Shown one piece after another: positions 2,536 through 22,824 of a stretch of 22,824 nucleotides of DNA. The stretch spans positions 1-22,824 of IMG/VR virus record IMGVR_UViG_3300035083_000019. One strand, 5' to 3'. Every line of letters starts with the position of its first letter. Position 1 is the first letter of the stretch. This DNA comes from a virus. The notes below the pieces were generated by a model. That model did no database searches and had not been told where the DNA came from. It was given only the letters and a program-made list of their open reading frames with translations. The translations under genes and the position numbers were made by a program.

Positions 2536-3555
2536 GTGGCAGAGCCGACCGTCGTTCAGCGTAAGATGCTGGCAAAGATGGGCATCGCAATGCCTGATGG
2601 GTCATACTACATCAGGAATGAAGCCGAACTTAGTGATGCGATAAAGGCTGTTGGCCGGGCTACTCCAAACGCTGGCGAGTCAGATGTACAAAGAAGAAAT
2701 GACGTTCGTCAACACTGCATCGCCAGAGCCAAAGCATTAATGCTTACTAAGATGATTCCTGACACCTGGAATTCCGATGGATCGCTGAAGCAGTCGATAT
2801 CAGTCGATGATATTCTGGAGCATTTCGGCGTCAAGGGTATGCATTGGGGAATCAGGAAAACTTCGGAAAGTAATCCAGCAGATACTAAAACTTCAGCGAT
2901 CAAGGGTCTAGATAAATTTCCGCCAGATCAGGCAGCTGCATATGCTTCGACTGCTGCTAAAATGTCGAAAGCATATGGGTTTCAAGTTAAAGAGTTCGTC
3001 CCTCTTACTTCCAGAGAGAGCAAGAACGGACTTGCCTATATTTCGATGAATTCTAATGGTGGTGTCATTCATGCTTCAACAGAATCGAATCTTAAATCCA
3101 CACTTCTTCAAAAAGAACGTGAAGGATGGTTTCCCGATTCAAGTGGCCATTCAATGGAAGCGCTCATAACTCACGAATCCGCACACGCAATGTTTCATAC
3201 TCTCGGTAAAGGCAGTGATTCATGGAAAGGATTCAATAATCAGAAACAGCCGACAGGAAAAATTCTAAAAGAGGCGTGGAAGAAAGCTGCCGCGCAGGCT
3301 GTTGCTGATGGCATTATAAAACCGCAGAAGACTGGTTTTTCCAGAATTCTAGACAGTAGTCCTGAATTCAAACTAGCTAAATTCATTTCTAGATATGCAG
3401 ATACTTCTGTGTTTCGAGAAGAATCGGAAGCTGAGATATTCCGAGCCTATCACTGGAGTAGTAATCCTTCTAAGTTTATCGACGCGTTCATGAAAGAACT
3501 AAACGATGGACTTGGCGTTGACGCTCCGCCATTCAGCGGAAGGAAAATTAAATGA
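2536..3555 (+). CDS. Phage structural protein with LEHFGVKGMHWG motif and HExxH metalloprotease-like domain
   Basis: A 339-residue protein with GTG start placed by AAGGAGG just upstream. Residues about 18-80 (MPDGSYYIRNEAELSDAIKA, then CIARAKALML and IPDTW) match a segment I know from many phage capsid/protease proteins. Residues 94-108 carry LEHFGVKGMHWGIRK, a motif seen in phage virion proteins ahead of variable domains. The remainder is a separate globular domain with H213-E-S-A-H217 (ITHESAHAMFHTLGKG) and a downstream acidic cluster, EESEAEIFRAYHWS at 295-308, that could supply the third zinc ligand. That layout is zincin-like. The C terminus overlaps the next start by ATGA. I infer a virion-associated protease or injected effector; the substrate is unknown, and a non-catalytic structural role is possible. 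Confidence 0.75.
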   Translation: MAEPTVVQRKMLAKMGIAMPDGSYYIRNEAELSDAIKAVGRATPNAGESDVQRRNDVRQHCIARAKALMLTKMIPDTWNSDGSLKQSISVDDILEHFGVKGMHWGIRKTSESNPADTKTSAIKGLDKFPPDQAAAYASTAAKMSKAYGFQVKEFVPLTSRESKNGLAYISMNSNGGVIHASTESNLKSTLLQKEREGWFPDSSGHSMEALITHESAHAMFHTLGKGSDSWKGFNNQKQPTGKILKEAWKKAAAQAVADGIIKPQKTGFSRILDSSPEFKLAKFISRYADTSVFREESEAEIFRAYHWSSNPSKFIDAFMKELNDGLGVDAPPFSGRKIK

Positions 3556-4103
3556 TAACTCCAGGTATATTTGATCCCGATTCATTCGAGACCCCAGAGG
3601 ATTTTCGTCGTGCTCTCCTCGAGGCGGGTCTTAAAGAGGGCTGGCAGCCAATCGTTGTAGATCCTGAATCGAAAGTTGATGATGCCATGGTACAGACATC
3701 ATTCGAGGTTTCCAAATTCCTCGAACATTTCGGCGTCAAAGGCATGCATTGGGGTGTTCGTCGACAAGAAACTTCTAGTTCGCCAGGATCTTCAAGTGAT
3801 CGAACTGTAGCAGATAAACTTGCAGCAAAGACGCGAGCTGCTGGAGGAACTCACGTCTTGTCTAACGATGAACTTAGGAAACTTAACGAACGACTCAACC
3901 TTGAAGCCAATCATCAGAGATTGCTGCATCCCGGAAATGAAGAATCAGGAAGAAAGACTGTTGAAAAGATCCTGAGGAGTGCCGGGAAGAACGAGGCTAA
4001 TAAGTACGCCGCAATCTATGCAGCAAAGGGCGCTGAATACGCAGTTAAGTGGCTTATTAAGCAAAGTCTCGGAACTTCCGGAGGAAGAGGTAAGCACGGC
4101 TGA
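3552..4103 (+). CDS. Small LEHFGVKGMHWG-motif phage protein upstream of terminase
   Basis: A 183-residue protein whose ATG overlaps the previous stop (ATGA, 3552-3555), implying coupled translation. Residues 1-56 are acidic and helical (PEDFRRALLEAGLKEG). LEHFGVKGMHWGVRR follows at about 57-71, repeating twelve consecutive residues of the upstream gene. After a Ser/Pro-rich linker (SSSPGSSSD) comes a helical tail with LSNDELRKLNERLNLEANHQ and a Lys-rich C terminus. This NDELRxLNxRLxLE helix is commonly found behind the GVKGMxWG motif in phage proteins. It lies directly before the large terminase, where a small terminase would be expected, but I see no clear DNA-binding helix-turn-helix, so I do not call it TerS. 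Function unknown; virion-associated is the best guess. Confidence 0.75.
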   Translation: MITPGIFDPDSFETPEDFRRALLEAGLKEGWQPIVVDPESKVDDAMVQTSFEVSKFLEHFGVKGMHWGVRRQETSSSPGSSSDRTVADKLAAKTRAAGGTHVLSNDELRKLNERLNLEANHQRLLHPGNEESGRKTVEKILRSAGKNEANKYAAIYAAKGAEYAVKWLIKQSLGTSGGRGKHG

Positions 4104-5882: not shown

Positions 5883-7217
5883 GTGGGCAAAATTACAAAC
5901 CGTCTCAGACATGCCTGGAACGCGTTCGTTTTCCAGGACCAGAATCCGGCGATATCATCTTCTGATCTGGGAACATCTTATACGTCTCGTCCAGATCGTC
6001 AGCGATTCCGTCATTTCAACGAGAAAACAATCATCGCAGCAATCTATACGAGGATTGCAATCGATGTTGCTGCTGTTCCGATACGTCATGTTCGGCTTGA
6101 TGATAATCAGCAGTATCAGGAAGATATGGCTAGCGCGCTGAATGATTGTTTGCTGGTTGAGGCTAATATTGATCAGAGTGGACGCCATTTTATTCAAGAT
6201 CTGGTGCAAACACTGTTTGATGAAGGCGTAGTAGCGATTCTTCCTGTTGATACAACCTTGAATCCAATGACGACCGGTGGTTATGATGTCAACTCTATGC
6301 GAGTTGGCCGAATAATGAACTGGTATCCGAAATACGTCCGTGTAAGAGCTTATAACGAAGCTAAAGGCATTCAGCAAGAAGTTCTTGTGCCGAAGAACAT
6401 GGTCGCCATAGTCGAGAACCCTCTCTACTCGGTAATGAATGAGCCGAGTTCTACTCTTCAGAGACTACTAAGGAAACTTAACCTTCTGGATGTTGTCGAC
6501 GAGCAGAGCGGGTCTGGAAAACTAGATCTGATAATTCAACTTCCCTATGTTATTAAAACTGAGGCTCGTCGTGCAGAGGCAGATAAGAGACTAAGGGAAA
6601 TTGAGTTCCAGCTTAAGGGTTCACAGTACGGAATTGCCTATACTGATGGCACAGAGAAGGTTGTTCAGCTTAACCGGCCGACGACCAATAACCTTATGGA
6701 TCAGATCCAGTATCTTACGGTGATGCTATACGGCCAACTCGGCTTGACCGAGGAAGTTATGAATGGCACTGCTGCCGAAGAACCCATGATCAATTACTAC
6801 AATCGTACAGTCGAACCAGTTCTGGCTGCCATCGCAGGTGCCATGAAGAGAACTTTCCTTACAAAGACTGCACGCTCACAAGGTCAGAGCATCTTCTACA
6901 TCAGAGATCCGTTCAAGTTGGTCCCGGTCAAGGACATTGCAGAGATCGCTGACAAGTTCACTCGTAACGAAGTACTTTCATCAAATGATGTGCGTGCCAT
7001 TGTTGGCTTTAAGCCGTCTAAGGATCCACATGCAGACATTCTTCTCAACAAGAACATCCCGGCGGCGTATGCTGAACTGCCTGTGGCTGGTGTTGCACTG
7101 AAGAGACCGATACCTCCGCAAAGGTCGGCCGTCCCTCAAGTTCCATCAGAACCACTAGTACCACAACCAGAACAGCTACTAAGACCACAAGGAGATAATA
7201 GTCAAAATGGTACCTGA
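5883..7217 (+). CDS. Portal protein (HK97-like)
   Basis: Forms the dodecameric ring at the capsid vertex through which DNA enters and leaves. The product is 444 residues from GTG 5883 (446 if the GTG at 5877 is used). Recognisable portal segments are IYTRIAIDVAAVPIRHVRLD near 58, a middle region with MNWYPKYVRVR and VPKNMVAIVENP, the long helix EARRAEADKRLREIEFQLKG, and the clip/stem-like LMDQIQYLTVMLYGQLGLTEEVMNG followed by INYYNRTVEPVLAAIAGAMKRTF. The C terminus is a Pro/Gln-rich, disordered tail. It lies between terminase and the protease-capsid fusion, the standard order, and overlaps the latter by 11 bases. Confidence 0.95.
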   Translation: MGKITNRLRHAWNAFVFQDQNPAISSSDLGTSYTSRPDRQRFRHFNEKTIIAAIYTRIAIDVAAVPIRHVRLDDNQQYQEDMASALNDCLLVEANIDQSGRHFIQDLVQTLFDEGVVAILPVDTTLNPMTTGGYDVNSMRVGRIMNWYPKYVRVRAYNEAKGIQQEVLVPKNMVAIVENPLYSVMNEPSSTLQRLLRKLNLLDVVDEQSGSGKLDLIIQLPYVIKTEARRAEADKRLREIEFQLKGSQYGIAYTDGTEKVVQLNRPTTNNLMDQIQYLTVMLYGQLGLTEEVMNGTAAEEPMINYYNRTVEPVLAAIAGAMKRTFLTKTARSQGQSIFYIRDPFKLVPVKDIAEIADKFTRNEVLSSNDVRAIVGFKPSKDPHADILLNKNIPAAYAELPVAGVALKRPIPPQRSAVPQVPSEPLVPQPEQLLRPQGDNSQNGT

Positions 7218-9297
7218 CTTTAGTGGGTACGTCACGAAGAGCGGCATCAGGTGCTCCGATGGCAGGACCATAGTGGCCCATGCCTTCAAGAGTAGCGATA
7301 AGCAGCAGGTTCCGCTCGTGTGGCAGCACCAGCACAACGAACCCGAGAACGTCCTCGGCCATGTCATGCTTACCAACCGCGATGACGGAGTGTGGGGAGA
7401 CGGTTTCTTCAACGAGACTCCTCCGGCTCAGCAGGCAAAAGCCCTTGTCATCCACAAGGACATCACAAATCTCAGCATTTATGCCAATCAGCTCGTTGAG
7501 CACGCCAAGAACGTCGTTCATGGCGTCATCCGCGAAGTGAGCCTGGTTCTGTCCGGTGCCAATCCTGGTGCTTACATCGAGAACGTCAGCATCGCGCATT
7601 CCGAAGACAACATTCAGATCGTCGAGGATGAAGCCATCATTTACAGCGGTTCTCCGCTGGTTCTTGCGCATGCTGTCGATGGCATCAGTACTCTGGTACC
7701 ACCTCCGAGGCAGGTTGGCCAGAAGAAAGGCCCGATGCCCAAGCCGAAGACGCAGACTCCAACAGCAGCCAATCCCGATCCTGATGGAGACGGCGACAAC
7801 GATTTGTTCGATCCGGCGGATGGCGGTCTGGGTCCGGACGCCACTGTTCAGCAGGTGTACGACACGCTGACGCCACAACAGAAGACTATGGTAAACGCTA
7901 TGGTTGGCGCTGCCATGGATAACGTGTCGCAGAGCGGCGTGAGTTCAGACGACCCGGACAAGATCATCCACGACAAGAACCAGAAGGGCGACGCAGTGAC
8001 CCGAAACGTCTTCGACCAGGATTCTACAGACGGCAAGAAAGTGGCCGGAGCTACTCTATCGCATTCCGACATCAAGGGGATATTCGACTCTGCCCGCAAG
8101 GATGGATCTCTGAAGGCTGCGGTCGAGTCGTACGCTCTTGCTCACGGCATCGACAACATCTCAACTCTGTTCCCGTACGACCAGGCCGTCACTGATTCTC
8201 CGGACTTCATCAGCCGGAGGATGGAATGGGTGTCCAACGTTCTGGCCTCGACCCGGAAGACGCCTTTCTCCCGGATCAGGAGCTGGACTGCCGACATCAC
8301 ATTCCAGGAAGCTCGTGCCAAGGGTTACATCAAGGCCGCGCTGAAGAAGGAAGAGTTCATCCGGATCGCACGCCGGATCACGACTCCTCAGACCATCTAC
8401 AAGAAGCAGAAGCTCGACCGCGACGACATCCTGGACATCACCGAGTTCAACGTGGTCACCTGGCTGCAGACCGAAATGCGTCTCTTGCTTGACGAGGAGC
8501 TCGCTCGCGCAGTTCTGATCGGTGACGGCCGGGATGCCGATGACCCGGACAAGATCAACACGTCGAACGTCAGGCCGATCTACGGTGACGACGAGATGTA
8601 TGTCACCAATGTCTGGGTCGATCAGGCAGCCATCAACGTCGCCAATATCGGCCCTGACGCGATCGTTGACGGAATTGTCAACGCTTTCCGATTCTACAGG
8701 GGATCCGGGAATCCAATCCTGTACACAACCAGGATCTGGCTTGCGAAGATGCTCCTGATCAAGGACACTCTCGGTCGCAGGATCTATCCGACCGCCGTGG
8801 AACTCTCCGCTGCAATCGGCGTCAACGACATCATTCCATGTGAGGTTATGGAGTCCATTCCGAACCTCATCGGGATCGTGGTCAACCTGACCGACTACAC
8901 GAACGGCACCGACCGCGGCGGCGAGGTGTCGATGTTCGATTTCTTTGATATAGATTATAACCAGTTTAAGTATCTCATGGAGACCCGCATGTCGGGTGCC
9001 ATGACCAAGTACCGCGGTGCTCTGGTTGTTCAGCAGTTCACCGGAACAGGCTTGCTGCCGCTGCCTGCTGCTCCGACCTTCAACGAGGTCACCGGTGTCG
9101 GCACCATTCCGGCATTCTCTGGTCTGCACTACACATACAAGGTCGTTGCAGATGACGGTTCTCTGGGTTCGGCTCTGACTCTTGGTGCTCAGGCTGCGAT
9201 CAACCCGGGTGCCTATGTCACCTACCGGGCCGTTCCGGACTCTGGATACGACTTCGCGGCCGAGAACATCGAGTGGACTTTCCGTCGCGACAACTGA
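7207..9297 (+). CDS. Capsid maturation protease fused to HK97-type major capsid protein, with C-terminal Ig-like domain
   Basis: One 696-residue polypeptide holds most of the head-building functions. Residues 1-160 resemble a prohead protease: VPLVWQHQHNEPENVLGHV (His near 41) and IREVSLVLSGANPGAYI (probable catalytic Ser112). Residues about 160-285 are a Pro/Lys linker and a low-complexity, acidic, scaffold-like stretch (PDGDGDNDLFDPADG, then TPQQKTMVNAMVGAAM). Residues 286-610 are the HK97-fold shell protein, with PFSRIRSWTADITFQEARAK, TIYKKQKLDRDDILDITEF, LLLDEELARAVLIGDGR and METRMSGAMTKYRGALVV. Residues 620-696 add a beta-domain (GLHYTYKVV, VTYRAVPDSGYDFA, IEWTF). The start follows AAGGAG at 7190-7195 and overlaps the portal gene. 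Codons favour C/G-ending forms, fitting the most abundant virion protein. Fused protease-capsid genes are known in actinophages. Confidence 0.93.
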   Translation: MVPDFSGYVTKSGIRCSDGRTIVAHAFKSSDKQQVPLVWQHQHNEPENVLGHVMLTNRDDGVWGDGFFNETPPAQQAKALVIHKDITNLSIYANQLVEHAKNVVHGVIREVSLVLSGANPGAYIENVSIAHSEDNIQIVEDEAIIYSGSPLVLAHAVDGISTLVPPPRQVGQKKGPMPKPKTQTPTAANPDPDGDGDNDLFDPADGGLGPDATVQQVYDTLTPQQKTMVNAMVGAAMDNVSQSGVSSDDPDKIIHDKNQKGDAVTRNVFDQDSTDGKKVAGATLSHSDIKGIFDSARKDGSLKAAVESYALAHGIDNISTLFPYDQAVTDSPDFISRRMEWVSNVLASTRKTPFSRIRSWTADITFQEARAKGYIKAALKKEEFIRIARRITTPQTIYKKQKLDRDDILDITEFNVVTWLQTEMRLLLDEELARAVLIGDGRDADDPDKINTSNVRPIYGDDEMYVTNVWVDQAAINVANIGPDAIVDGIVNAFRFYRGSGNPILYTTRIWLAKMLLIKDTLGRRIYPTAVELSAAIGVNDIIPCEVMESIPNLIGIVVNLTDYTNGTDRGGEVSMFDFFDIDYNQFKYLMETRMSGAMTKYRGALVVQQFTGTGLLPLPAAPTFNEVTGVGTIPAFSGLHYTYKVVADDGSLGSALTLGAQAAINPGAYVTYRAVPDSGYDFAAENIEWTFRRDN

Positions 9298-9937: not shown

Positions 9938-10813
9938 ATGACAAAGGTTGTCTGGGATGACACCGGCAACAGACGATTCGAGACGGGCGTCGATCAAGGC
10001 GTTCTCTATCCGCTGAATCCCTCGACACAGCTCTACGACACCGGTTTCGCCTGGAATGGCCTGACCATGGTCAAGGAGCAGCCAACTGGCGCCGCTTCAA
10101 ACCCGCAGTACGCTGACAACATCAAGTACATGACTTTGTTGTCAACAGAACTCTACGGCGGAACGATCGAGGCATTCACTTATCCAGAAGAGTTCGGTGC
10201 TTGTGACGGGACTGTGACGCCAGTTGATGGCGTTGTCATCGGCCAGCAGGCCAGGCAGATGTTCGGCTTGTCTTACCGGTCCAAGATCGGCAACGACGTC
10301 TCGCCTGATCTGGGATTCAAGCTGCATCTCGTGTACGGAGCCATTGCAGCTCCAGCTGAGAGGGATTACGCAACAGTCAACGCTTCGCCGGGACCTGTTC
10401 AGTTCTCATGGGTCTTCGAGACCTATGGCGTCCCAATGGCGAACATGAAGCCGGTCTCTCTGATTGAGATCGACAGTACCGAGGTAGATTCCACTGCCTT
10501 GTCCAACCTGATGGACTTCCTGTACGGCACCAGCGGCTCTGCGCCGAGTCTTCCAATGCCGGATGCCGTCTTGGCGCTGTTCAGCGGTTCAGTTAACATG
10601 ATCACGTTGACTGCACCAACCTTCGATGGTGCTCACACCATTACCATTCCGTCTGAGACCGGCGTGACCTACTACGTCGACGGTGTGGTCCACACTGCTG
10701 GATCTCAGCTTCTCACTTCCGGTCAGAAGAAGGTCGTCACAGCAATTCCGAGCAACGGTTACGTGTTCAACAAGCCCTTCGTTGCTGAATGGCTGTTCAC
10801 GTTCGTCTCGTGA
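9938..10813 (+). CDS. Major tail tube protein with C-terminal Ig-like domain
   Basis: A 291-residue protein that should polymerise into the tail tube. Residues 1-205 carry the family pattern: ETGVDQGVLYPL, FAWNGLTMVKEQPTGA, YADNIKYMTLLSTELYGG, TIEAFTYPEEFGACDG, QMFGLSYRSKIGND and FKLHLVYGAIAAPAERDYAT. Residues about 224-291 form a separate beta-domain (GAHTITIPSETGVTYYVDG, KKVVTAIPSNGYVF, EWLFTFV) that resembles the capsid protein C terminus. Start ATG follows TAAGGAGAAGT. C/G-ending codon preference matches high expression. A diverged paralogue lies at 11385-12164, with the chaperone gene between. Confidence 0.93.
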   Translation: MTKVVWDDTGNRRFETGVDQGVLYPLNPSTQLYDTGFAWNGLTMVKEQPTGAASNPQYADNIKYMTLLSTELYGGTIEAFTYPEEFGACDGTVTPVDGVVIGQQARQMFGLSYRSKIGNDVSPDLGFKLHLVYGAIAAPAERDYATVNASPGPVQFSWVFETYGVPMANMKPVSLIEIDSTEVDSTALSNLMDFLYGTSGSAPSLPMPDAVLALFSGSVNMITLTAPTFDGAHTITIPSETGVTYYVDGVVHTAGSQLLTSGQKKVVTAIPSNGYVFNKPFVAEWLFTFVS

Positions 10814-11384: not shown

Positions 11385-12164
11385 TTGACGCGACTTGGTT
11401 GGGATTCGATAGGCGACCATGTTTACGAAAGAGGAGTCGATCGAGGCGTTCTCTATGTTGATGGGCTCGATGGAGTGGCCTGGAATGGTCTTATTACCGT
11501 TTCTGAGAAACCTTCAGGAGGTCATCAGCCTTACTACATAGACGGATCCAAGTTTAATCAGGATTCAGCTTCTGAGGATTTTGATCTGACAATCGACGCC
11601 TTCACGTATCCAAGCGAATTCGAATCATGCGAAGGCATAGATTCATTCAACACGGGACTGTACTTGACGAGTCAGCCGAGAAAGTCGTTCGGATTCTCAT
11701 ACAGAACGCTTATCGGAAACGACACATCGTCTGATGCGGGTTATAAAATTCATATCGTTTACAACGCAATGGCTATGCCGACAGGAAGAAACAACCTTTC
11801 TGAATCGAGTCAGGTCAACCCGCTTATCTTCAGCTGGGATGTTCAGACCGTTCCAATTCCCATTCCAGGTTTTAAGAGTACTTCGCACATCGTAATTGAT
11901 TCACGTGTGATAAGCGGGCCTGCACTCTCAGGCATAGAGGATATTCTCTACGGAAGTGGTAGTACTGCTCCAAGAATACCTACCGTTTCTGAATTGAGCG
12001 CCGTTATTGACGTTTACGCAGGTCTTCTGGTCATTGATTACGGAGATGGAACAGCCAATATCAGCGGTGTAAGTGTAGTAATGATTGATGCCAACACCTA
12101 CACAATCAACTGGCCATCTGTGGTCGAAATCGACGCAAATACATACAAGGTTACTACGTCGTGA
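11385..12164 (+). CDS. Second major tail protein paralogue
   Basis: A 259-residue protein clearly related to the gene at 9938: YERGVDRGVLYVDG against RFETGVDQGVLYPL, VAWNGLITVSEKPSGG against FAWNGLTMVKEQPTGA, TIDAFTYPSEFESCEG against TIEAFTYPEEFGACDG, and FGFSYRTLIGND against FGLSYRSKIGND, with DILYGSGSTAPRIP matching DFLYGTSGSAPSLP. The C terminus differs: from about residue 205 it has short internal repeats (VVMIDANTYTINW, VVEIDANTYKVTT) in place of the Ig-like domain. It begins with TTG. Codons are less C/G-biased than those of the first copy. It may be a minor ring in the tube, a collar or tip adaptor, or a replaced tube gene; copy number and position are not deducible here. Confidence 0.85.
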   Translation: MTRLGWDSIGDHVYERGVDRGVLYVDGLDGVAWNGLITVSEKPSGGHQPYYIDGSKFNQDSASEDFDLTIDAFTYPSEFESCEGIDSFNTGLYLTSQPRKSFGFSYRTLIGNDTSSDAGYKIHIVYNAMAMPTGRNNLSESSQVNPLIFSWDVQTVPIPIPGFKSTSHIVIDSRVISGPALSGIEDILYGSGSTAPRIPTVSELSAVIDVYAGLLVIDYGDGTANISGVSVVMIDANTYTINWPSVVEIDANTYKVTTS

Positions 12165-12913: not shown

Positions 12914-13294
12914 ATGGTTAATATTACGACATCAGGTTCATTCGACAGAACAGACCGTTTTCTTTCCCGAATGTCAAAGAGAAACATAATCAGTAATCTC
13001 AACTCTTATGGCCAAATGGGAGTAGACGCACTTTCAGCAGCAACTCCTGCTTCTACAGGCGAGACTGCAGCTTCCTGGTATTATGAAATTCAGGGAAGCG
13101 GTCTCGACTTTATTATCCGGTGGTGCAATCGTCATCTTGATAGTGCCGGAACTCCCATCGTAATCATGCTTCAACTAGGTCACGGAACTGGAACCGGAGG
13201 GTACGTACAAGGACGGGATTTCATTAACCCGGCAATCGCGACTATATTTGATCAGATTGCCAACGATGCGTGGAAGGAGGTGATGTCTTCATGA
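12914..13294 (+). CDS. HK97 gp10-like tail completion protein
   Basis: A 126-residue protein. The N terminus is amphipathic and basic (FDRTDRFLSRMSKRN), followed by VDALSAATPASTGETAASWYYEI, where the TPxxTGxTAxSW-type stretch is typical of HK97 gp10-like proteins. The C-terminal half has IIRWCNRH, LQLGHGTGTGGYVQGRDFINPAI and FDQIANDAWKEV. I know this GHGTGTGGYVxGRDFINPA element from small proteins of siphovirus tail modules. The last codons overlap the tape measure start, and the tape measure ribosome binding site is inside this gene. Likely a neck or tail-completion protein. Confidence 0.75.
   Translation: MVNITTSGSFDRTDRFLSRMSKRNIISNLNSYGQMGVDALSAATPASTGETAASWYYEIQGSGLDFIIRWCNRHLDSAGTPIVIMLQLGHGTGTGGYVQGRDFINPAIATIFDQIANDAWKEVMSS
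13274..13284 (+). promoter_or_regulatory. Ribosome binding site deciding the tape measure start
   Basis: AAGGAGGTGAT is a full-length Shine-Dalgarno match ending seven bases before ATG 13291. It rules against the in-frame GTG at 13270, which lies upstream of the site. Confidence 0.75.
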
Positions 13295-16200
13295 GCGGAA
13301 GTATCGATGAACGTATAGTCGAAATGACATTCAGAGGTACAGCATTTGCTGCGGGGATCAAGAATTCTCTAACTTCCCTGAACAGTCTTAAGACTGGCCT
13401 GAATAGCCTTAAGGGATCTGAAGCAGACATCAATAATCTTGATGCCGCAGGAAAGAGATTCTCCCTCAAAGGAATGTCCAATGGAATCGAAGGACTTGCA
13501 GGCAAGTTCAAGTCTCTCGGAATAGTTGGCGTCACTGCTCTTGCTACCATCACAAACAAAGCAGTCAACGTAGGTATATCTCTAGTCAAAGCACTGACAA
13601 TTGATCCGATCAAGGCTGGCTTTGACGTCTATGAGACGAAGATAAATGCGATTCAGACTATTCTTGCCAACACTGCTGCCGCTGGTACAACGCTTAAGCA
13701 AGTTACTGCAGCTCTTGCTCAACTTAACACTTACGCGAATCTGACCGTATATAACTTTGGTGAGATGGCAAGGAACATTGGTACGTTCACAGCTGCTGGC
13801 GTAGGATTGAAGACTGCAGTTGCCTCGATCAAGGGTATTGCAAACCTTGCCGCTCTCTCCGGCGCAAGTGCTGATCAAGCTTCGAGAGGTATGTATCAGC
13901 TCTCTCAGGCAATCGCTGCTGGCAGAGTCAAACTGCAAGACTGGAACTCGGTTGTTAATGCTGGTTTCGGCGGTAAAGTATTCCAGACGGCTCTGATAAA
14001 CACAGCAAGAGCCTTTGGCATTAACGTCGATGCTATGATTAAGAAGGCTGGAAGTTTCAGGCAATCTCTTCAGACCGGATGGATCTCTTCTAAAGTTCTG
14101 ACTACGGCTCTGGCCACATTTACAGGCGATCTTAGTAATGCTCAGCTTAGGGCACTTGGTTTCACTGAAAAAGAAACCATAGCCATTCAGAAACAGGCCA
14201 AAATAGCAGTTCAGTCAGCGACTCAAATCAGGACGATAACTCAACTTAATCAGGCTCTGAAGGAAGAAGTCGCAACTGCCTGGGCATCTGTATTCCAGGC
14301 GATAATCGGAAACAGTCATCAGGCTGTGAAGACTCTTTCGGCTATTCATAGTGCTGCGGAAAACTTCCTCACTAAGCCGATTTACAGTCTGGCCAAGGTT
14401 CTTCAGCAATTTACAGATCTGGGTGGCCGAGCGGTTGTCATTAAAAGCCTTGAGAATGTGCTTCACTCTCTTGGTACTATTCTTCATGTTGTCGGTGAGG
14501 CATTCAGATCTGTCTTCCCGTCAACTGGCGGTGGTGCTGCCAGTGGATTGCTTTCCATGGCCAAGGCTTTTGAAAGATTCACTGCGGCCCTGACTCCTAG
14601 TGCAAAAACTCTGGGTTATCTGAAATCGATCTTCGCGGGACTCTTTTCAGCCGTTAAAATTGTTTATGATGTAATCAGCGGCTTGATACGAGTAATATTC
14701 CATCTGGGAGATTCGGCCTCAAAAAGCGGTGCTGGTTTCCTGGCCCTGATAGCTAAACTAGGCGATTTCATTACTAAGATCCGGAAGTCGATCGAGTCTG
14801 GTACTGCTCTTGGAAATTTCTTCCGTGTACTCGGTACGATTCTCTCCTTCCCGATCAAGGTCATAGAAGCTATTATCAGCAAGCTCGGTGGAATGGGCGG
14901 AGCTTTCGGAAAAGCAACTGGCGGTATTTCAGGATTCATTCAGAAGATCGGCGATTTCTTCAAGAATATTGCTAACTTCATTATTAAGGGCATTAATAGC
15001 GGAAACTTCAGCGCAATAGCCAGTTTGCTTAACCATCTTCTTGTAGGCAGCATCCTTCTGACAGTCAAGAAGTTCTTCAGTGGTTTCGGAAAAGCTAGTG
15101 GTGCAGGCGGAGGTATATTCGCAGGCATCAAAGAATCACTTGAAGGTTTGAACAAAACGTTTGAGACCATGCAAAACAAGCTCAAGTCAGGTATACTTAA
15201 GAACATTGCTATTGCAATAGGTATACTTGCGGTCTCACTATTGCTTCTGTCATTCATCAAACCCGCTAATTTGGCTAAGGCAGTCGCTGCTATCACTGTG
15301 ATGATGACTGAACTCATCACATCTATGAAGTTCTTGGTCAAGTTCAGCGAAGAAGGCGGCATCCTTCAAATGATAGCTGCCGCGGCAGCTCTTGACTTGC
15401 TAGCTGTGGCGATCCTGATTCTTGCTGCTGCTGTAGCAATTCTTTCTCACTTCAGCTGGGAGCAACTGGGCAAGGGATTGTCCGCAATTGCAGTTTTGCT
15501 AGCCTCGCTTGCACTTACGACCAAACTTCTGTCCGCTGATTCAAAGGGACTTATCGCTTCGGCGATTGCCATCGGAATTCTGGCTGTTTCGCTGAACATA
15601 CTGGCAATTGCAGTCGGAACACTCGGAAAACTTCCAGTAGCCAACCTGGTCAAGGGAATTGCCGCGATTGCCGTACTCCTGGCGATCATGGCTGGATTCA
15701 ACGCAATTAGCGGTACTCAGCTCATTCGTACCGGACTTGCAATGGTCATCGTCGGAGCAGCACTTATTGTCATCTCCAAGGCTGTAGGAAGTCTTGGAGC
15801 CATGTCAATCGGAACTTTGGCCAAGGGGATTATCTCCATTGCTGTTGTTCTTGGTGTTCTCGCAGCCGGTATGCTTGTTATGGAAGGCTCGATTCCTGGT
15901 GCAGTAGCACTAGTTATTGCTGCAGCTGCTCTTGAGATACTAGGCAATGTATTGCGCAAAATGGGATCAATGTCGTGGGGTTCCATTGCAAAATCACTAG
16001 TTCTTCTATTCGGATCACTTTTGCTTATCGCAGCAGCAATGATTGCCATGGAAGCAGCTCTTCCGGGAGCAGCCGCATTGCTTGTCGTTGCAGCATCGTT
16101 GGCAATCTTGACGCCAATTCTGATTGCTCTGGGCCACATGTCCTGGACGGCAATCGCCAAAGGCCTTCTAGCTCTCGCAGGCGTTTTCCTGGTTTTGGCT

Positions 16201-17508
16201 GCGGCGGGAGTTGTGCTAACACCTCTTATACCGAGTTTGCTTGGTATAGGTGCAGCTGTCGCGCTGCTTGGCATAGGTCTTGCACTAGCTGGTGCCGGTG
16301 TCTTCCTGTTCGCAACCGGACTTACAGCTCTTGGTGCAGCTCTTATCGTTTCGGGCGTAGCCATATTGTCATTCGTCAAGAGCATCCTGACTATTATTCC
16401 GGTAGCAGCAAAGGAACTCGGACTAGGAATAATTGCTCTGGCAAACGCTATTGCTGGCGGAACAGTCGCCATTACTAACGCTTTCGTAGCGATCTTGTCT
16501 GCCATCCTCAAGGGGATAATAAAGGTTGCCCCGCTGGCTGAAAAGACCTTTGAAGAAGTAATGACCGCGATTCTCAGGTCAATAAAAAAGTACTCTGGAC
16601 CGATTACTAACACGTTCCTGAATCTTATTCAGTTGTTGCTGAACGCTGTCAATAATCATCTTCCAAGATTCATCAATTCTGGAGTTAGCATTGTAATAGG
16701 TTTCCTTAACGGCATCCAGCGGAATATAGCAAAGGTTGCTAGTGCCGGAACGAACATTGTTATTACGTTCATTAATGCTATTAACAACGGCACTCAGCGT
16801 ATCGTTTCTGCTGGCATCACCATGATCATTAATCTGGTGAACGGCATAGCTAATAAGATCCATGCAAGTAATCCGGCAATGTCTGCGGCAGCTCGTAATC
16901 TTGGAAGTGCCATCGTTCAAGGGATGATTCTGGGAGTTGAAGGTTCCCTGCAAGGATTGTTTGGTTCCGTTATAAATGCGGCAAAGGGTGCTCTGCACGC
17001 TGCTATGCATGCCATCGGAGCGAATTCGCCATCCAGGGAATTCATGAAGGTTGGCAAGTTCAGCATGCTTGGCTGGGCTCAGGGAAATATCGACAACACT
17101 AGCATTGTAACTGATTCTGTGGAAGCAGCAGGAAAGGCTGCTCTTAACAGTCTCGGAAAGACGATGTCTAATGTCGGGGCATTCATCAGTGACAATCTAG
17201 ATCTTCAGCCTCGAATCACTCCAGTGATTGATCTCACAAAGGCCAGGGCGGGTTTCGGTCAGCTATCGGCCTTGTCAAAGAGTCATCTGATCAATGCTGG
17301 TGCCTCGACTACTTCAGCAGCATCTATATCTGCAGCTAACGCAATAGCAGCACAACAAGCGAGTCTCGTACAACATACTCAAAATCTGACGTTCAATCAG
17401 ACCAACACTTCTCCGGCGTCACTATCCGCAGCGGATATTTACCGGAAGACAAAAAATCAGCTATCTATCGCGAAGGGAGTACTAGCAGGTAATGCTAACC
17501 GCAGTTGA
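13291..17508 (+). CDS. Tape measure protein
   Basis: A 1405-residue protein that fixes tail length and is ejected with the DNA. Start ATG 13291 overlaps the previous stop as ATGA. The N-terminal 300 residues carry the conserved tape measure domain: IDPIKAGFDVYETKINAIQT, LNTYANLTVYNFGEMARNIG, TAAGVGLKTAVASIKGIANL and LKEEVATAWASVFQAI. From about residue 635 to 1040 there is a run of strongly hydrophobic helices (IAIAIGILAVSLLLLSFI, LLAVAILILAAAVAILS and others), typical of membrane-inserting tape measures. Near 1245 is NSPSREFMKVGKFSMLGWAQG, a segment frequent near tape measure C termini. At about 0.15 nm per residue this predicts a tail near 210 nm. No lysozyme or peptidase domain is obvious. 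Confidence 0.96.
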   Translation: MSGSIDERIVEMTFRGTAFAAGIKNSLTSLNSLKTGLNSLKGSEADINNLDAAGKRFSLKGMSNGIEGLAGKFKSLGIVGVTALATITNKAVNVGISLVKALTIDPIKAGFDVYETKINAIQTILANTAAAGTTLKQVTAALAQLNTYANLTVYNFGEMARNIGTFTAAGVGLKTAVASIKGIANLAALSGASADQASRGMYQLSQAIAAGRVKLQDWNSVVNAGFGGKVFQTALINTARAFGINVDAMIKKAGSFRQSLQTGWISSKVLTTALATFTGDLSNAQLRALGFTEKETIAIQKQAKIAVQSATQIRTITQLNQALKEEVATAWASVFQAIIGNSHQAVKTLSAIHSAAENFLTKPIYSLAKVLQQFTDLGGRAVVIKSLENVLHSLGTILHVVGEAFRSVFPSTGGGAASGLLSMAKAFERFTAALTPSAKTLGYLKSIFAGLFSAVKIVYDVISGLIRVIFHLGDSASKSGAGFLALIAKLGDFITKIRKSIESGTALGNFFRVLGTILSFPIKVIEAIISKLGGMGGAFGKATGGISGFIQKIGDFFKNIANFIIKGINSGNFSAIASLLNHLLVGSILLTVKKFFSGFGKASGAGGGIFAGIKESLEGLNKTFETMQNKLKSGILKNIAIAIGILAVSLLLLSFIKPANLAKAVAAITVMMTELITSMKFLVKFSEEGGILQMIAAAAALDLLAVAILILAAAVAILSHFSWEQLGKGLSAIAVLLASLALTTKLLSADSKGLIASAIAIGILAVSLNILAIAVGTLGKLPVANLVKGIAAIAVLLAIMAGFNAISGTQLIRTGLAMVIVGAALIVISKAVGSLGAMSIGTLAKGIISIAVVLGVLAAGMLVMEGSIPGAVALVIAAAALEILGNVLRKMGSMSWGSIAKSLVLLFGSLLLIAAAMIAMEAALPGAAALLVVAASLAILTPILIALGHMSWTAIAKGLLALAGVFLVLAAAGVVLTPLIPSLLGIGAAVALLGIGLALAGAGVFLFATGLTALGAALIVSGVAILSFVKSILTIIPVAAKELGLGIIALANAIAGGTVAITNAFVAILSAILKGIIKVAPLAEKTFEEVMTAILRSIKKYSGPITNTFLNLIQLLLNAVNNHLPRFINSGVSIVIGFLNGIQRNIAKVASAGTNIVITFINAINNGTQRIVSAGITMIINLVNGIANKIHASNPAMSAAARNLGSAIVQGMILGVEGSLQGLFGSVINAAKGALHAAMHAIGANSPSREFMKVGKFSMLGWAQGNIDNTSIVTDSVEAAGKAALNSLGKTMSNVGAFISDNLDLQPRITPVIDLTKARAGFGQLSALSKSHLINAGASTTSAASISAANAIAAQQASLVQHTQNLTFNQTNTSPASLSAADIYRKTKNQLSIAKGVLAGNANRS

Positions 17509-18316
17509 TATAACCAATCCTAGTGGGAACACACTATCACTCCCTCTTCTCGATTCTTCGGCTGGATATTCCATCCGGGATATCGGAGGTCTGGGTCCTG
17601 TCACAGCAGCACTGACATCTTCATCTCTGGCGCAAGTGGACGGGGCTCAGCCTCAGAATGCCAGAAGAGATATCAGAAATATCACGATGAAGCTGGGCCT
17701 CAAACCGAATTACGGAATGAATACAGTTCAGTCTCTCCGGTTCAATCTATACGATTATCTTCTGCCCAAGGCAATAATCGATCTTGGGTTCTACATTGAC
17801 GGTGTACTTTATGTGGTTACTTCGGGTCAGGTCGAGAGTTGTGATCCCGTTATATTCTCGGCCGACCCGGAAGTCGACATTTCAATTATCTGTTATGATC
17901 CTGATTTCTTCGGGCCTTCGGAACTGAATCTTTCAGGTCACACTCAGGCGGATCACACAACAACTAGCCTGATTCAGTATGCAGGAACGTCAGATGCAGG
18001 ATTTATATTTACCCTGCATGTAGACCGGGCCATTAGTGATTTCGTCATTACGAATACAACTTCAAATGATCTAGTGCGTTCTCTGGAATTGACAGCCTCG
18101 TTTATCCCCGGGGATGTAATCGCTATAAACACGATTCCAGGATCGAAAGGCGTTACTCTTACACGATCAGGCATTACCACTTCGATTCTCTATTACATGA
18201 ATCCGCTATCTACCTGGCCCTTCCTGCAGAAGGGAGACAATAACTTCGCAGCGTACACATCGGGGGCAGGAATTTTGTACGATCTTGTCTACACGCCTAG
18301 GTTCGGGGGCATCTGA
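17492..18316 (+). CDS. Distal tail protein (Dit-like)
   Basis: A 274-residue protein that starts inside the tape measure gene (17-base overlap) with AAGGGAGT upstream. The first 130 residues fit a siphovirus tail family/Dit N-terminal domain: YSIRDIGGLGPVTAALTSSS, ARRDIRNITMKLGLKPN, SLRFNLYDYLLPK, then strands LGFYIDGVLYVVTSGQVESC and DISIICYDPDFFGP. The rest is a beta-rich domain (GFIFTLHVDRAISDFVITN, LTASFIPGDVIAINTIPG, GVTLTRSG). Dit forms the hexameric ring at the tail end that joins the tube to the hub. Its place between tape measure and hub gene is the standard order. The stop overlaps the next ATG by one base. Confidence 0.85.
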   Translation: MLTAVDITNPSGNTLSLPLLDSSAGYSIRDIGGLGPVTAALTSSSLAQVDGAQPQNARRDIRNITMKLGLKPNYGMNTVQSLRFNLYDYLLPKAIIDLGFYIDGVLYVVTSGQVESCDPVIFSADPEVDISIICYDPDFFGPSELNLSGHTQADHTTTSLIQYAGTSDAGFIFTLHVDRAISDFVITNTTSNDLVRSLELTASFIPGDVIAINTIPGSKGVTLTRSGITTSILYYMNPLSTWPFLQKGDNNFAAYTSGAGILYDLVYTPRFGGI

Positions 18317-21300
18317 TGGTTACCCTGAACAACACTCTTGAGGGTGTGGCATCAGGTACTACTCTTACCGGCGGCAGTAGTGGTAACAGCGGAGGAACGT
18401 CAGGTAATTTCTTTGACTCTGTGGCCATCGTTGCGGGAGGTACACTAGCATCCGACAATTCCTGGTCGGCGCATGGACTTAACTCCCTGAAAATAGCCAC
18501 AGGATCCACTGCTGGTAACTCCATAGCAAACTGGCAGTCGAGCCTTACTGCTTCCAGTCTCGCGACTGTATATTTCCGCTATGCTCTTAAGTTCACTGCA
18601 AATCCGTCAGCAGATCACAGAATACTCACTGCCCTGATTTCAAGTGGCGGTGGCGTATGCTCATTCTGGGTTAGCTCCACAGGTAAGATACTAGCCAAGA
18701 ATGCAGCTGGCACGACAATTCTCACTTCTACAGCGTCTATTCCTCTTGGTACCGGATTCCGTCTAGAGGGTCTTATAACCGGCCATGCAACTGCCGGGCA
18801 GCTTCAGTTCAAGTTGTTCACAACATCGATGGATGCTGTGACAGCTGATGAAACTTCATCTTTGGCAACAGGCCTTGCCACAGGCGGACCCATAACCAAG
18901 GTTCAGATTGGTATCGGCGGAACATCAATAGCAAACGCCGGACCATTCTGGGCAGATGATATAGCTTTCTCTGATGTTGGCTACCTAGGCCCGGTTATCA
19001 CCGGAACGGGCTCAGTAAGAATGCACAAGATGAGCCTGTCTGGTTCCGGGATTGAGAAGATCTCAGCAACAGGCTCAATTCGCATTCACAAGATGGGTCT
19101 GTCTGCTGCTGGAATCGGGAAAATCTCAGCAACAGGCTCAATCGCGATGCACAAGATGGGCTTGTCTGCGGTTGGAGCTCCTGCAACATTTATTACTTTG
19201 TCAAACAGTTTTGAAGGTATCCCTTCTGGAACTACTCTGACAGGTGGCAGTGGCGGGAATACAGGAGGACTATCTGGCGACTTCCTTGATACTGTGTTTG
19301 CTTCCGCTGCTGCGACACTGGTATCTGACAATTCCTGGTCGGCACACGGTCTTAATTCTCTCAAGGTTGCTACCGGTCTGACTGCCGGAAATGCTCAGGT
19401 AACATGGGGAGCAAGTCTTTCTTCTAGTTCTGTTCCTACCGTATGGTTCAGGCAATATCTCAAATTCTCGTCGAACCCTGCTGCATCACTAAGGATATTT
19501 GGAACAACTGTTATAGCTGGCGGAGGAGTTGGCTCATTCTGGGTCAATACCTCAGGCAAAATAGAAGTTCATAATGCTGCCGGTACAACAGTTTTTACGT
19601 CAATTGCCAGTATTCCTCTTGGCACCGGATTCCGCCTGGAAGGCTTCATAACCGGTCATATTTCTGCCGGCCAGGCGCAATTCAAGTTGTTCACGACGTC
19701 AATGGATGCGCTAGTCGCTGATGAAACTTCGCTTTTGCATACAGGTCTTGCCACGGGCGGACCTATAGCAAAGGTATATTTTGGTATCAACGGCGCGTTG
19801 ATTTCAAATGCTGGTCCTTACAACATAGATGATATTTCAGTCTCTACAGTTGGCTGGATAGGCCCGGTTCTCACTGGCACGGGCTCGATCCGAATGCACA
19901 AGATGTCTGTCTCCGGCAGTCAGATTATCACAGGCTCAATCGCGATGCACAAAATGGGACTGTTCAGTAATACAGGCTCAATCGCGATGCACAAGATGAC
20001 TTTCTCCGGAGGCGGCTTTGAGATAGATGCAGGAACAGGATCCATCAGGATTAAGAAGATGGGCCTGTCTGCTTCTTCGATTCAGAGAGATTCTGGCACA
20101 GGATCCGTTCGTGTTAAGAAGATGCGCCTGTCTGGTTCCGGAACTGTAAGAGTTCCAGTTACAGGTACAGGATCCGTCCGTGTTAAGAAGATGCGCCTGT
20201 CTGGTTCCGGAGTATTCGTAGGCAGGAATATCCTGCGTCCGCAGACAGGCAAAGCATGGTTCGGTGCTTATGCGGGATCAGGAAATGCGGCGCCATCTAC
20301 GTTTGAGAACGCCGGCGATGTACTTAACGCTACTCGTAAGCTAGACATCATTGCTCGTTATGATAAATTTGATGCGCGATGGCCGTCTGCAACGGAAAAG
20401 TCTTATGTCGGATCAGGTACGGGTCGTACTGCAATATCGTTTAACTGGCCTTGCGCTACTGTATCGCCTAATACTCGCGGCGGCCGGACCTCGTCAAGTA
20501 ATGTTTACTGGGCAGATATAACAGCAGGGATCTGGGACGATGTAATCGATGCTCAAGGAGCTTACCTTGCGGCATATGGCCAGCCTGTTCTGATCAGTTT
20601 CGCTGGTGAATTTGACAGTACAGCCAGAGCTATCGATATTTTCGGCGAAGGCGATCCGCGCGAGTATGTTCCTGCCTACAGACGAATCGTAGACCGGGTA
20701 CGTGCCCAAGGTGCAACGAATGTCATCTGGTGCTGGCGTCCAACAGGAAACAACCTGACCGTTTCCGGATCGTTTATCGGCGGCTTGTCACTTGAAGTGA
20801 TGTATCCAGGAGATACTTACACGGACTGGATATGCGCAGATCTCTACGACACGAATCTTTCCCATGGCAGCGCATATAATGCGTATCATACATTCTTTGA
20901 CTGGATAGCAGCCGGGAATCTGGGAGCGAATGCCGGAACTGGCAGTCATCATTATCCGGCAGGAACAGGAATCAGCAAGGCTCGTGCCATCCTGGAGACC
21001 GGAGTTGGCACCACAGTATCTGATTCGGCCCGGGCTGCCTGGATTAACACTGTCCCGGCAGGATGCACGACGCTAGGCATCCAGATCTGGATGTGGTTCA
21101 ACGCAACCGGGACACTCGGAACATTCATTGATCCTGTCACATTCCCTCTGACATGCCTCGCCATGCAGTCGATCGGCGCCAGTTCGTTCTTTACGGAAAG
21201 CGGAGCTGGATCCATTCGGCTAAAGAAGATGCGCCTGTCTGGTGCGGGCACTGCTGTAGGGCTGAAATCAGGATCAGTCCGCATGCACAAAATGGGACTT

Positions 21301-22824
21301 TCGGGCATTGGCGTAATCAAATCCACTGTAGTGTCCCCGCCGAAATACTGGTACACCATAGATTCTTCTCTCAGGCGTGATCAGGTGATAGAGGGTTTCG
21401 AATCTCTTATATGGACTGAGAGATATTCCGCTTACGGTGATTTTCAGATAGTAATGAAGTCGACACTTGAAAATCGCAGACTGTTGACCAAGGATACTCT
21501 TATAGGCATGAATGGTTCGCGTCGTGTGATGAAGGTTCGTACAATCGCAGATGACGTTGATGACGCTGGAACCAGAAACATTACAGTTACGGGAAAGTCT
21601 CTCGAGGCAATCCTCGATGATCGTGTAGCCATTCCAAACCTTATGGGTACGACTGCGACACCGAACTGGACACTTACAGGAACACCAGGTGATATTGCCA
21701 GAGCTATGTTCTCTGATATTTGCGTCTTCAAGGTTCTGGATCCACTCGACGCAATCGACTTTTATACTCCGGGCTCACTTCTTCCGGCGGGAAACCTCAC
21801 AGAACCCACGAACATCATTACTCTCATCGCGTCTCCTGACACACTTTACAATAGCGTGAAACAGCTATGCGATGCGTACAACCTTGGGTTCAGGTTCGTC
21901 AAAGACGGCGATACAGGAAAACTATATTTCGAGATTTACGTGGGTAATGACCATACCACGAATCAGTCAGTCAAACCTGCCGTTATATTTGACCCCAATA
22001 TGGAAAGTCTATCGAATGTTAGTCAGCTTACATCTACGGATCTGGTCAAGACTGTTGCTTATGTAGTCGCTGCAAATGGTTCGGCTATCGTCTATGCTCC
22101 TGGTGTCGATCCGTCAGCGTCGGGATTTGAACGACGTGTGTTGCTGGTCAACTCGAGCAACACAGATCCTGCGAGTAAGAAAGCTATATTTGTGGGTTAT
22201 AGCGGTTCCATACATGGCTGTTATCTTGCAAATCCGGCTGAGACGAAAGCTATATTTGACACTCCAACTTCGTTCATCGCCGGAGGCAGTCCGAAATCAA
22301 GTCCAGTTCAGGACGGCATGCATTCCACGCCCGTTATGAACTATTCATCTTACGCGCAATTCAAGGCTGACATCATCAACGCTCCCTACATTCAGGGAGA
22401 CTTTACGTATTCTCCAAACGGCCCGATTGACAGATCTATATTTCAGTGGGTCATCTACGATCCGGAAAACTGGGCGGCCACACCGCGCGAGGAAAAGCAA
22501 GATCCGAAGAAATACATCGGCTTCTTCATCGCACTCGCTCATGCTAACGGCTTCAAGGTTATACTCGCTCCAGGTCGTGATCTGGCGAATTCAGCTACCG
22601 TTAATCAGGCACTAGTTGGCGAGAATGTCAATGACTGGTTCGTGCGAGTCAATGTGGCCTCATGGTGTGCGACTGCTGACATGTTCGAGTTTCAGGATCA
22701 GAACAATCAGGCGTCATCGACAGACTTTGTTGGTTATTTCACTACTGTGCGCAATCAGATAAGAGCGGTTAATCCCACCATCCCTGTACTGTGCGGGATC
22801 ATTACTACCGGCGGCGGTTTGCTT
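18316..22824 (+). CDS. Giant tail-tip protein: lectin-like domains, GH26-like domain and Gp37-like hub, 3'-partial
   Basis: Read in frame from ATG 18316 there is no stop to the right edge, giving at least 1503 residues. Residues 1-227 and 292-518 are paralogous jelly-roll, lectin-like domains (ASDNSWSAHGLNSLKIATG against VSDNSWSAHGLNSLKVATG; both contain IPLGTGFRLEG). Between and after them lie eleven copies of a GSVRMHKMSLSGSG-type repeat. Residues 638-960 are GH26-like, with LISFAGEFD (Glu765), NVIWCWRP, YPGDTYTDWICADLYD and ILETGVG (Glu894). Residues 1010 to about 1335 match the Siphovirus ReqiPepy6 Gp37-like tail family (YWYTIDSSLRRDQVIEGFES, TVTGKSLEAILDDRV), a tail hub component. From 1336 a second barrel begins (IYDPENWAATPREEKQDP). 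It follows the Dit gene with a one-base overlap. Likely the hub that binds and cleaves host surface glycan. Domain calls are by motif recall, not database search. Confidence 0.9.
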   Translation, partial: MVTLNNTLEGVASGTTLTGGSSGNSGGTSGNFFDSVAIVAGGTLASDNSWSAHGLNSLKIATGSTAGNSIANWQSSLTASSLATVYFRYALKFTANPSADHRILTALISSGGGVCSFWVSSTGKILAKNAAGTTILTSTASIPLGTGFRLEGLITGHATAGQLQFKLFTTSMDAVTADETSSLATGLATGGPITKVQIGIGGTSIANAGPFWADDIAFSDVGYLGPVITGTGSVRMHKMSLSGSGIEKISATGSIRIHKMGLSAAGIGKISATGSIAMHKMGLSAVGAPATFITLSNSFEGIPSGTTLTGGSGGNTGGLSGDFLDTVFASAAATLVSDNSWSAHGLNSLKVATGLTAGNAQVTWGASLSSSSVPTVWFRQYLKFSSNPAASLRIFGTTVIAGGGVGSFWVNTSGKIEVHNAAGTTVFTSIASIPLGTGFRLEGFITGHISAGQAQFKLFTTSMDALVADETSLLHTGLATGGPIAKVYFGINGALISNAGPYNIDDISVSTVGWIGPVLTGTGSIRMHKMSVSGSQIITGSIAMHKMGLFSNTGSIAMHKMTFSGGGFEIDAGTGSIRIKKMGLSASSIQRDSGTGSVRVKKMRLSGSGTVRVPVTGTGSVRVKKMRLSGSGVFVGRNILRPQTGKAWFGAYAGSGNAAPSTFENAGDVLNATRKLDIIARYDKFDARWPSATEKSYVGSGTGRTAISFNWPCATVSPNTRGGRTSSSNVYWADITAGIWDDVIDAQGAYLAAYGQPVLISFAGEFDSTARAIDIFGEGDPREYVPAYRRIVDRVRAQGATNVIWCWRPTGNNLTVSGSFIGGLSLEVMYPGDTYTDWICADLYDTNLSHGSAYNAYHTFFDWIAAGNLGANAGTGSHHYPAGTGISKARAILETGVGTTVSDSARAAWINTVPAGCTTLGIQIWMWFNATGTLGTFIDPVTFPLTCLAMQSIGASSFFTESGAGSIRLKKMRLSGAGTAVGLKSGSVRMHKMGLSGIGVIKSTVVSPPKYWYTIDSSLRRDQVIEGFESLIWTERYSAYGDFQIVMKSTLENRRLLTKDTLIGMNGSRRVMKVRTIADDVDDAGTRNITVTGKSLEAILDDRVAIPNLMGTTATPNWTLTGTPGDIARAMFSDICVFKVLDPLDAIDFYTPGSLLPAGNLTEPTNIITLIASPDTLYNSVKQLCDAYNLGFRFVKDGDTGKLYFEIYVGNDHTTNQSVKPAVIFDPNMESLSNVSQLTSTDLVKTVAYVVAANGSAIVYAPGVDPSASGFERRVLLVNSSNTDPASKKAIFVGYSGSIHGCYLANPAETKAIFDTPTSFIAGGSPKSSPVQDGMHSTPVMNYSSYAQFKADIINAPYIQGDFTYSPNGPIDRSIFQWVIYDPENWAATPREEKQDPKKYIGFFIALAHANGFKVILAPGRDLANSATVNQALVGENVNDWFVRVNVASWCATADMFEFQDQNNQASSTDFVGYFTTVRNQIRAVNPTIPVLCGIITTGGGLL
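19006..19188 (+). repeat. GS-x-MHKM repeat block A, 3 copies
   Basis: Three units encode TGSVRMHKMSLSGSGIEKIS, TGSIRIHKMGLSAAGIGKIS and TGSIAMHKMGLSAVGA, between the two jelly rolls. The DNA shares the 16-base string ggttccgggattgaga with the 63-bp repeats at 1512. Confidence 0.9.
19879..20226 (+). repeat. GS-x-MHKM / GS-x-VKKM repeat block B, 6 copies
   Basis: Six units link the second jelly roll to the GH26-like domain. The first three keep MHKM, the last three change to IKKM or VKKM; the final two share the nucleotide string gttaagaagatgcgcctgtc, indicating a recent local duplication. Confidence 0.9.
20227..21198 (+). other. GH26-like glycosidase domain within the giant tail protein
   Basis: Segment for residues 638-961. 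The order of elements is that of family 26 beta-mannanases: WFGAY near the start, an acid/base Glu after a beta strand (PVLISFAGEFD, Glu765), the NVIWCWRPTG strand, YPGDTYTDWICADLYD, and a nucleophile-position Glu after a strand (AILETGVG, Glu894), closing with IQIWMWF. The family match is from memory; the substrate is not predictable, and GH26 includes enzymes other than mannanases. Confidence 0.7.
21205..21330 (+). repeat. GS-x-KKM / GS-x-MHKM repeat block C, 2 copies
   Basis: Two units (AGSIRLKKMRLSGAG and SGSVRMHKMGLSGIG) form the linker between the GH26-like domain and the Gp37-like hub domain. Confidence 0.85.
21343..22320 (+). other. ReqiPepy6 Gp37-like tail hub domain within the giant tail protein
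   Basis: Segment for residues 1010 to about 1335. It opens with YWYTIDSSLRRDQVIEGFES and WTERYSAYGDFQIVM, continues with RTIADDVDDAGTRNITVTG and LEAILDDRVAIPN, and has a long middle with SVKQLCDAYNLGFRFVKDG. Proteins of this family occupy the hub position after Dit in actinophage tails. Here the domain is internal, with about 1000 residues in front of it. Confidence 0.7.

Follow-up and report, generated by a model that had tools for sequence, protein, structure and literature searches.

The tail hub at the right end of this phage record is likely a Tal-type, Gp37-like hub with two additions: an N-terminal arm of two concanavalin-like domains and a GH26 domain on flexible linkers, and a second TIM barrel nested at an insertion-tolerant hub site. 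The arm would act on surface polysaccharide. A single frame encodes the jelly rolls, the GH26 domain, the hub part and the barrel part, as proposed in the first-pass annotation, which was made from the sequence alone. From the N terminus, the order is jelly roll, linkers, jelly roll, linkers, GH26, two linkers, partial hub and partial TIM barrel (Table 1).

Table 1 Features of the fused hub gene and the two genes upstream of it. Positions refer to the window, residues to the fused protein.
Feature	Residues	Positions	Strand	Basis
Tape measure protein (TMP), two genes upstream of the fused hub gene		13270..17508	+	phrog_4372 E 0; TMP_3 E 1.4e-16
Dit (distal tail protein)		17492..18316	+	SPP1_Dit E 1.2e-8; phrog_33 E 2.1e-21
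Fused hub gene, 1503 codons, running off the right end of the record		18316..22824	+	
Jelly roll 1, predicted concanavalin-like	1-230	18316..19005	+	Model pLDDT about 90, best Z 17.9
Three linker repeats, 63-nt period	232-285	19009..19170	+	pLDDT about 35
Jelly roll 2	296-522	19201..19881	+	64% identical to jelly roll 1
Six linker repeats	523-632	19882..20211	+	
GH26 domain; putative acid/base E765 (20608-20610) and nucleophile E894 (20995-20997)	634-960	20215..21195	+	Pfam and PDB match, alignment
Two linker repeats	965-1000	21208..21315	+	
Gp37-like hub domain, first ~70%	1011-1283	21346..22164	+	PF14594 E 3.9e-32; phrog_538 E 1.3e-57
Uncharacterised, predicted TIM barrel, incomplete, begins at the hub insertion site	~1290-1503	22183..22824	+	Homologues, fold of homologue, site

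Genomic context and the open frame

The window, by which we mean the whole stretch of DNA analysed, is the entire IMG/VR record of 22,824 bases. Its structural module comprises, in order, a linker-repeat protein, terminase, portal, capsid protein, major tail protein with a paralogue, tape measure, Dit and the fused hub frame. The fused frame sits where relatives keep their tail hub, after TMP and Dit. Its ATG overlaps the Dit TGA by one base, and the same overlap was found in Streptomyces phage Psst1 and several IMG/VR relatives. The claimed open frame of at least 1503 codons was stop-free throughout. Since the record ends at position 22824, the stop codon and the C terminus of the hub gene are missing, and the search of viral_contigs gave no usable contig continuing to the right. 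GC content and codon use of all segments of the fused gene were near the values of the core genes, with jelly roll 2 the lowest.

The phage is a siphovirus whose relatives by hub infect Streptomyces, Arthrobacter and Microbacterium. Its host is probably an actinobacterium. A 7.6-kb contig (L089), which ends before the tape measure, encodes portal, capsid and major tail proteins 100% identical to those of the window, and the two apparently belong to the same phage population. In the product of the capsid gene (7207-9297, 696 aa), a fused N-terminal part resembling a prohead protease precedes the capsid domain. Two adjacent genes, 2536-3555 and 3552-4103, have the short motif LEHFGVKGMHWG(I/V)R(K/R) in common (Pfam DUF7211), which in relatives occurs in one or two genes at the same locus.

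The N-terminal arm

Residues 1-295 were modelled using homologues from the same phage clade. The model of residues 1-230 had an all-beta fold, with endo-glucuronan lyase, TtX122 domains and Cip1 as top structural matches (Z 17.6-17.9), followed by GH131, alginate lyases and sialidase lectin domains. As modelled, this segment is a concanavalin-like jelly roll, a fold that fits lectin domains and lyases alike. The two jelly rolls suggested earlier for residues 1-230 and 290-520 were thus both recovered, the second as a close copy of the first. Between its domains, the fused gene encodes eleven linker repeats of the type GS(V/I)xx(H/K)KMxLSG; the three modelled ones had the low pLDDT given in Table 1. 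For the N-terminal 1010 residues, no relatives were found at E 0.1 among 50,697 phage records.

A GH26-like barrel had been proposed for residues 638-960, and a GH26 match was found at almost the same boundaries. The Pfam score was 22.3 bits for the isolated domain and 19.1 bits within the whole protein, against a cut-off of 20.2. In the PDB, the domain matched endoglucanase H (E 1.9e-6), whose acid/base glutamate E109 aligned with E765. E894 was aligned by eye with a glutamate of the C-terminal GH26 domain of another contig, L124 (see below), in which the motif ETAS aligns by HMMER with AEFAS of endoglucanase H, at the nucleophile. Judged from these alignments, both GH26 catalytic glutamates are kept in the window domain.

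The hub domain

The hub was identified by PF14594 (Sipho_Gp37) with a score of 112.1 bits, against a curated cut-off of 26.2, as well as by phrog_538. Family match and synteny together point to the domain being the tail hub, in agreement with the first-pass annotation; the boundary given there at residue 1335 did not hold, as hub sequence stops at about residue 1283. A 389-position profile was built from five phage hubs, and the window hub covers positions 4-274 of it, after which the record ends inside the barrel. The window hub had no sequence match in the PDB, and profile comparison with the Tals of A118 and p2 (hhalign) gave no signal. A hub search in 396 genomes of one phylum, run with no positive control, found none.

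For comparison, 103 distinct hub frames were collected from phage records and IMG/VR loci, 98 of them complete, with a median length of 390 aa (n=98). In most siphoviruses of this kind, the hub had been said to start near its own N terminus, which was true for 97 of the 98 complete relatives; only L124 has more than 60 residues ahead of the hub. At the other end, the hub in L085 (8992-10617) is prolonged at its C terminus by an unassigned extension of about 160 residues.

The last barrel and the hub insertion site

Hub similarity ends at RRVLLVNSSNTD (residues 1273-1284). At the same point, the hubs of Microbacterium phage Count (L006) and of two further loci (L037, L075) carry inserts of 77-79 residues. 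The last barrel, which had been placed behind the hub, therefore appears to begin inside the hub domain, at the site of inserts in three other hubs.

Neither the window segment nor its homologues matched a Pfam or PHROG family, and tblastn in phages and plasmids gave no credible relatives. The barrel family was searched for with a degenerate DNA pattern for YDPExWxxTPxxE, which matched none of 100 shuffled versions of the window. The pattern was found at 35 genome loci and two viral loci. The homologues encoded at these loci are mostly 250-440 aa long and come from Actinomycetes, Acidobacteria and others; on visual inspection, many begin with a stretch resembling a signal peptide or lipoprotein signal. 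Y, D, E, W and Q residues are invariant in the family.

Viral contig L187 encodes a complete homologue with 44% identity to the window copy, which itself lacks the last ~50 residues. The model of the L187 homologue (pLDDT 87, pTM 0.86) had eight alternating strand/helix units and matched generic TIM barrels at Z about 13. Through this homologue, the last barrel of the window is predicted to be a TIM barrel. Its earlier description as glycosidase-like stood as regards the fold and is weakened by the lack of a match to a known glycosidase family. The search by fold likewise returned generic TIM barrels only, and assignment to a glycosidase family was rejected. The barrel may possibly be a glycosidase.

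A tail protein of 698 aa in L187 contains the barrel between its residues 85 and 341. The homologue of this protein in Pontimonas phage phiPsal1, phiPsal1_019, encoded right after the tape measure, is without the barrel, and its residues 78 and 81 flank the point concerned. The barrel family thus serves as a nested insert elsewhere, and the rest of the window hub is expected past the end of the record. In the nested reading, the hub would continue there, with the remaining ~110 residues just past the record end, after the barrel.

A second fusion at the same locus

L124, an independent contig located with an alignment of Dit proteins, encodes a 1185-aa protein at the same locus, composed of a barrel-like domain, a linker repeat, a complete and uninterrupted hub, a linker and a GH26 domain. 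The fusion thus recurs in an independent assembly, with a different order of modules. The L124 hub is 69% identical to the window hub, and the linker-to-hub junctions are alike (VVSPPKYWYTIDSSLRRDQVIEG in the window, VVTPKPLSNLWFTLDTQLRRDQIIEG in L124). The GH26 domain was matched by Pfam (E 4e-9) and in the PDB (E 4e-22). The N-terminal barrel-like domain, GH-like and with HEP and WETG motifs, had no Pfam or PDB match by sequence; it is related to the barrel of a tail-tube fusion in L091 (E 2e-18). In the C-terminal GH26 of L124 (10934-12376), the acid/base half and the nucleophile half are separated by an insert of ~170 residues, which is related to phrog_16363.

Alternative explanations

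In place of nesting, the barrel might replace the second half of the hub, giving a hub N-half with a C-terminal barrel and no further hub sequence. Second-half hub sequence is absent up to the record end, and C-terminal extensions of hubs are common (PMC7291167; L124, L085). However, 98 of 98 complete relatives keep the second half, L124 with its C-terminal glycosidase among them; the window hub breaks off at a site known to take inserts, and in L187 a barrel of this family is nested. We regard replacement as unlikely. An assembly chimera, in which an ordinary hub gene was joined through linker repeats to fragments of other phage genes, is suggested by the nature of the record, which is metagenomic and has tandem repeats, with exact repeats >60 nt in gene 834-1961. 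Yet exact repeats reaching into the fused gene are at most 33 nt long, the ATG of the gene still overlaps the Dit TGA, and the 1503 codons form an unbroken frame. The same kind of fusion in L124, with its similar linker-hub junction, also makes an assembly error unlikely, and a chimera is very improbable overall.

The added domains could also be adhesins that only bind, with both the GH26 and the TIM barrel catalytically dead. Known evolved Dits do carry binding CBMs (PMC7291167), and the jelly-roll fold is common to lectin domains, but the window and the C-terminal GH26 of L124 each retain both GH26 glutamates, and the barrel family keeps its invariant Y, D, E, W and Q. Binding alone is rather unlikely for these reasons. 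The reading of a hub with an N-terminal sugar-acting arm and a nested barrel remained the preferred one.

Glycan-type cassettes elsewhere in the clade

Carbohydrate-active domains of such siphoviruses had been expected on separate fibres. In this clade, domains of carbohydrate type are found on tail-tube paralogues and a pre-terminase protein as well. The same jelly roll is fused to paralogues of the major tail protein in five contigs (L093, L095, L097, L102, L115), and in two of these (L095, L097) it also lies within the pre-terminase gene. A tail-tube paralogue in L091, 1340 aa long, combines two LamG domains with a barrel-like domain. With jelly rolls, barrels and LamG domains on tail-tube and pre-terminase proteins, several positions of the virion are occupied by such cassettes. 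The window has a second major-tail-protein-like gene (11385-12164), which resembles the one at 9938-10813 (39% match in L089, a near-identical contig); the corresponding position in relatives takes up jelly rolls, barrel-like domains and LamG domains. Before the terminase, gene 834-1961 of the window contains exact 63-nt tandem repeats (about 1493-1731), the same linker type as in the hub gene. In L095 and L097, the homologous gene encodes two jelly rolls and about 20 linkers.

Homogenisation of the linkers within the genome was unsupported. On average, similarity was 0.70 between the linkers of the window, mostly those of the hub gene, and those of L095/L097, and 0.61 between the hub-gene linkers and those of 834-1961, in a small sample. 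Given this lack of homogenisation in the linker DNA, exchange between phages would be the likelier route. A broader view, which we put forward tentatively and with some doubt, is that glycan-acting cassettes (jelly rolls, LamG domains, GH26-like barrels) on a common linker might swap among the N and C termini of hubs, tail-tube paralogues and the pre-terminase protein. The virion would then serve as a carrier of interchangeable tools against polysaccharides, and the nested barrel would represent a new family of hydrolases, recruited from bacterial proteins that are probably secreted.

Proposed role of the fused hub

The sugar-acting domains built into the hub probably help the phage through the polysaccharide coat of its host. 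By synteny with the TMP-Dit-Tal triad (PMC7291167), the hub would close the tail below the Dit ring. If it is trimeric like known Tals, each tail would have three arms, reaching outward on flexible linkers. The jelly rolls would grip the surface polysaccharide and the GH26 barrel would cut it, so that the tail tip could approach the cell wall.

Contacts with Dit and the tape measure are believed to constrain the hub tightly. The window and L124 show that a large arm can precede it, and that inserts are tolerated at one internal site, apparently even the size of a whole barrel. The TIM-barrel family, which has no Pfam entry and occurs at least at 35 bacterial genome loci, is one for which phage genetics could help to reveal the substrate.

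Comparison with known systems

The compact Gp37-like hubs of Psst1, Scarif, LilHuddy and Count have a homologous hub domain (43-50% identity) and the same gene order as the window. They are shorter, at about 390 aa (465 in Count), begin with the hub itself and are without glycan-acting domains. CtLic26A/endoglucanase H (GH26; PDB 2cip, 2vi0) has in common with the window the GH26 similarity and, by alignment, the two catalytic glutamates. It is a distant, cellulosomal enzyme and gives no substrate for the window domain.

Carbohydrate-binding decorations are known from the major tail proteins of lambda, SPP1 and lactococcal phages (PMC7291167), and the jelly rolls on the tail-tube paralogues of this clade are placed likewise; in the window, the cassette type also reaches the hub. 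In the Tal of Listeria phage PSA, hub and glycosidase are on one chain, as in the window, but the glycosidase there ends an extension of ~300 residues after the structural domain, whereas the window GH26 is N-terminal (PMC7291167). In reported Tals, extensions come after the structural domain (PMC7291167). For an N-terminal arm of ~1000 residues, and for a TIM barrel placed at a site within the hub, we found no described precedent in the open-access literature.

The fused protein is best filed as an extreme "evolved Tal/hub". Evolved Dits and Tals of Gram-positive siphophages are central tail-tip proteins with carbohydrate-type domains (PMC7291167). This type of decoration is common to them and the window hub, and some known ones are inserted in the Tal structural domain (PMC7291167). 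The window hub differs in its N-terminal arm of ~1010 residues, its GH26 enzyme and its TIM barrel, probably nested, in place of a CBM.
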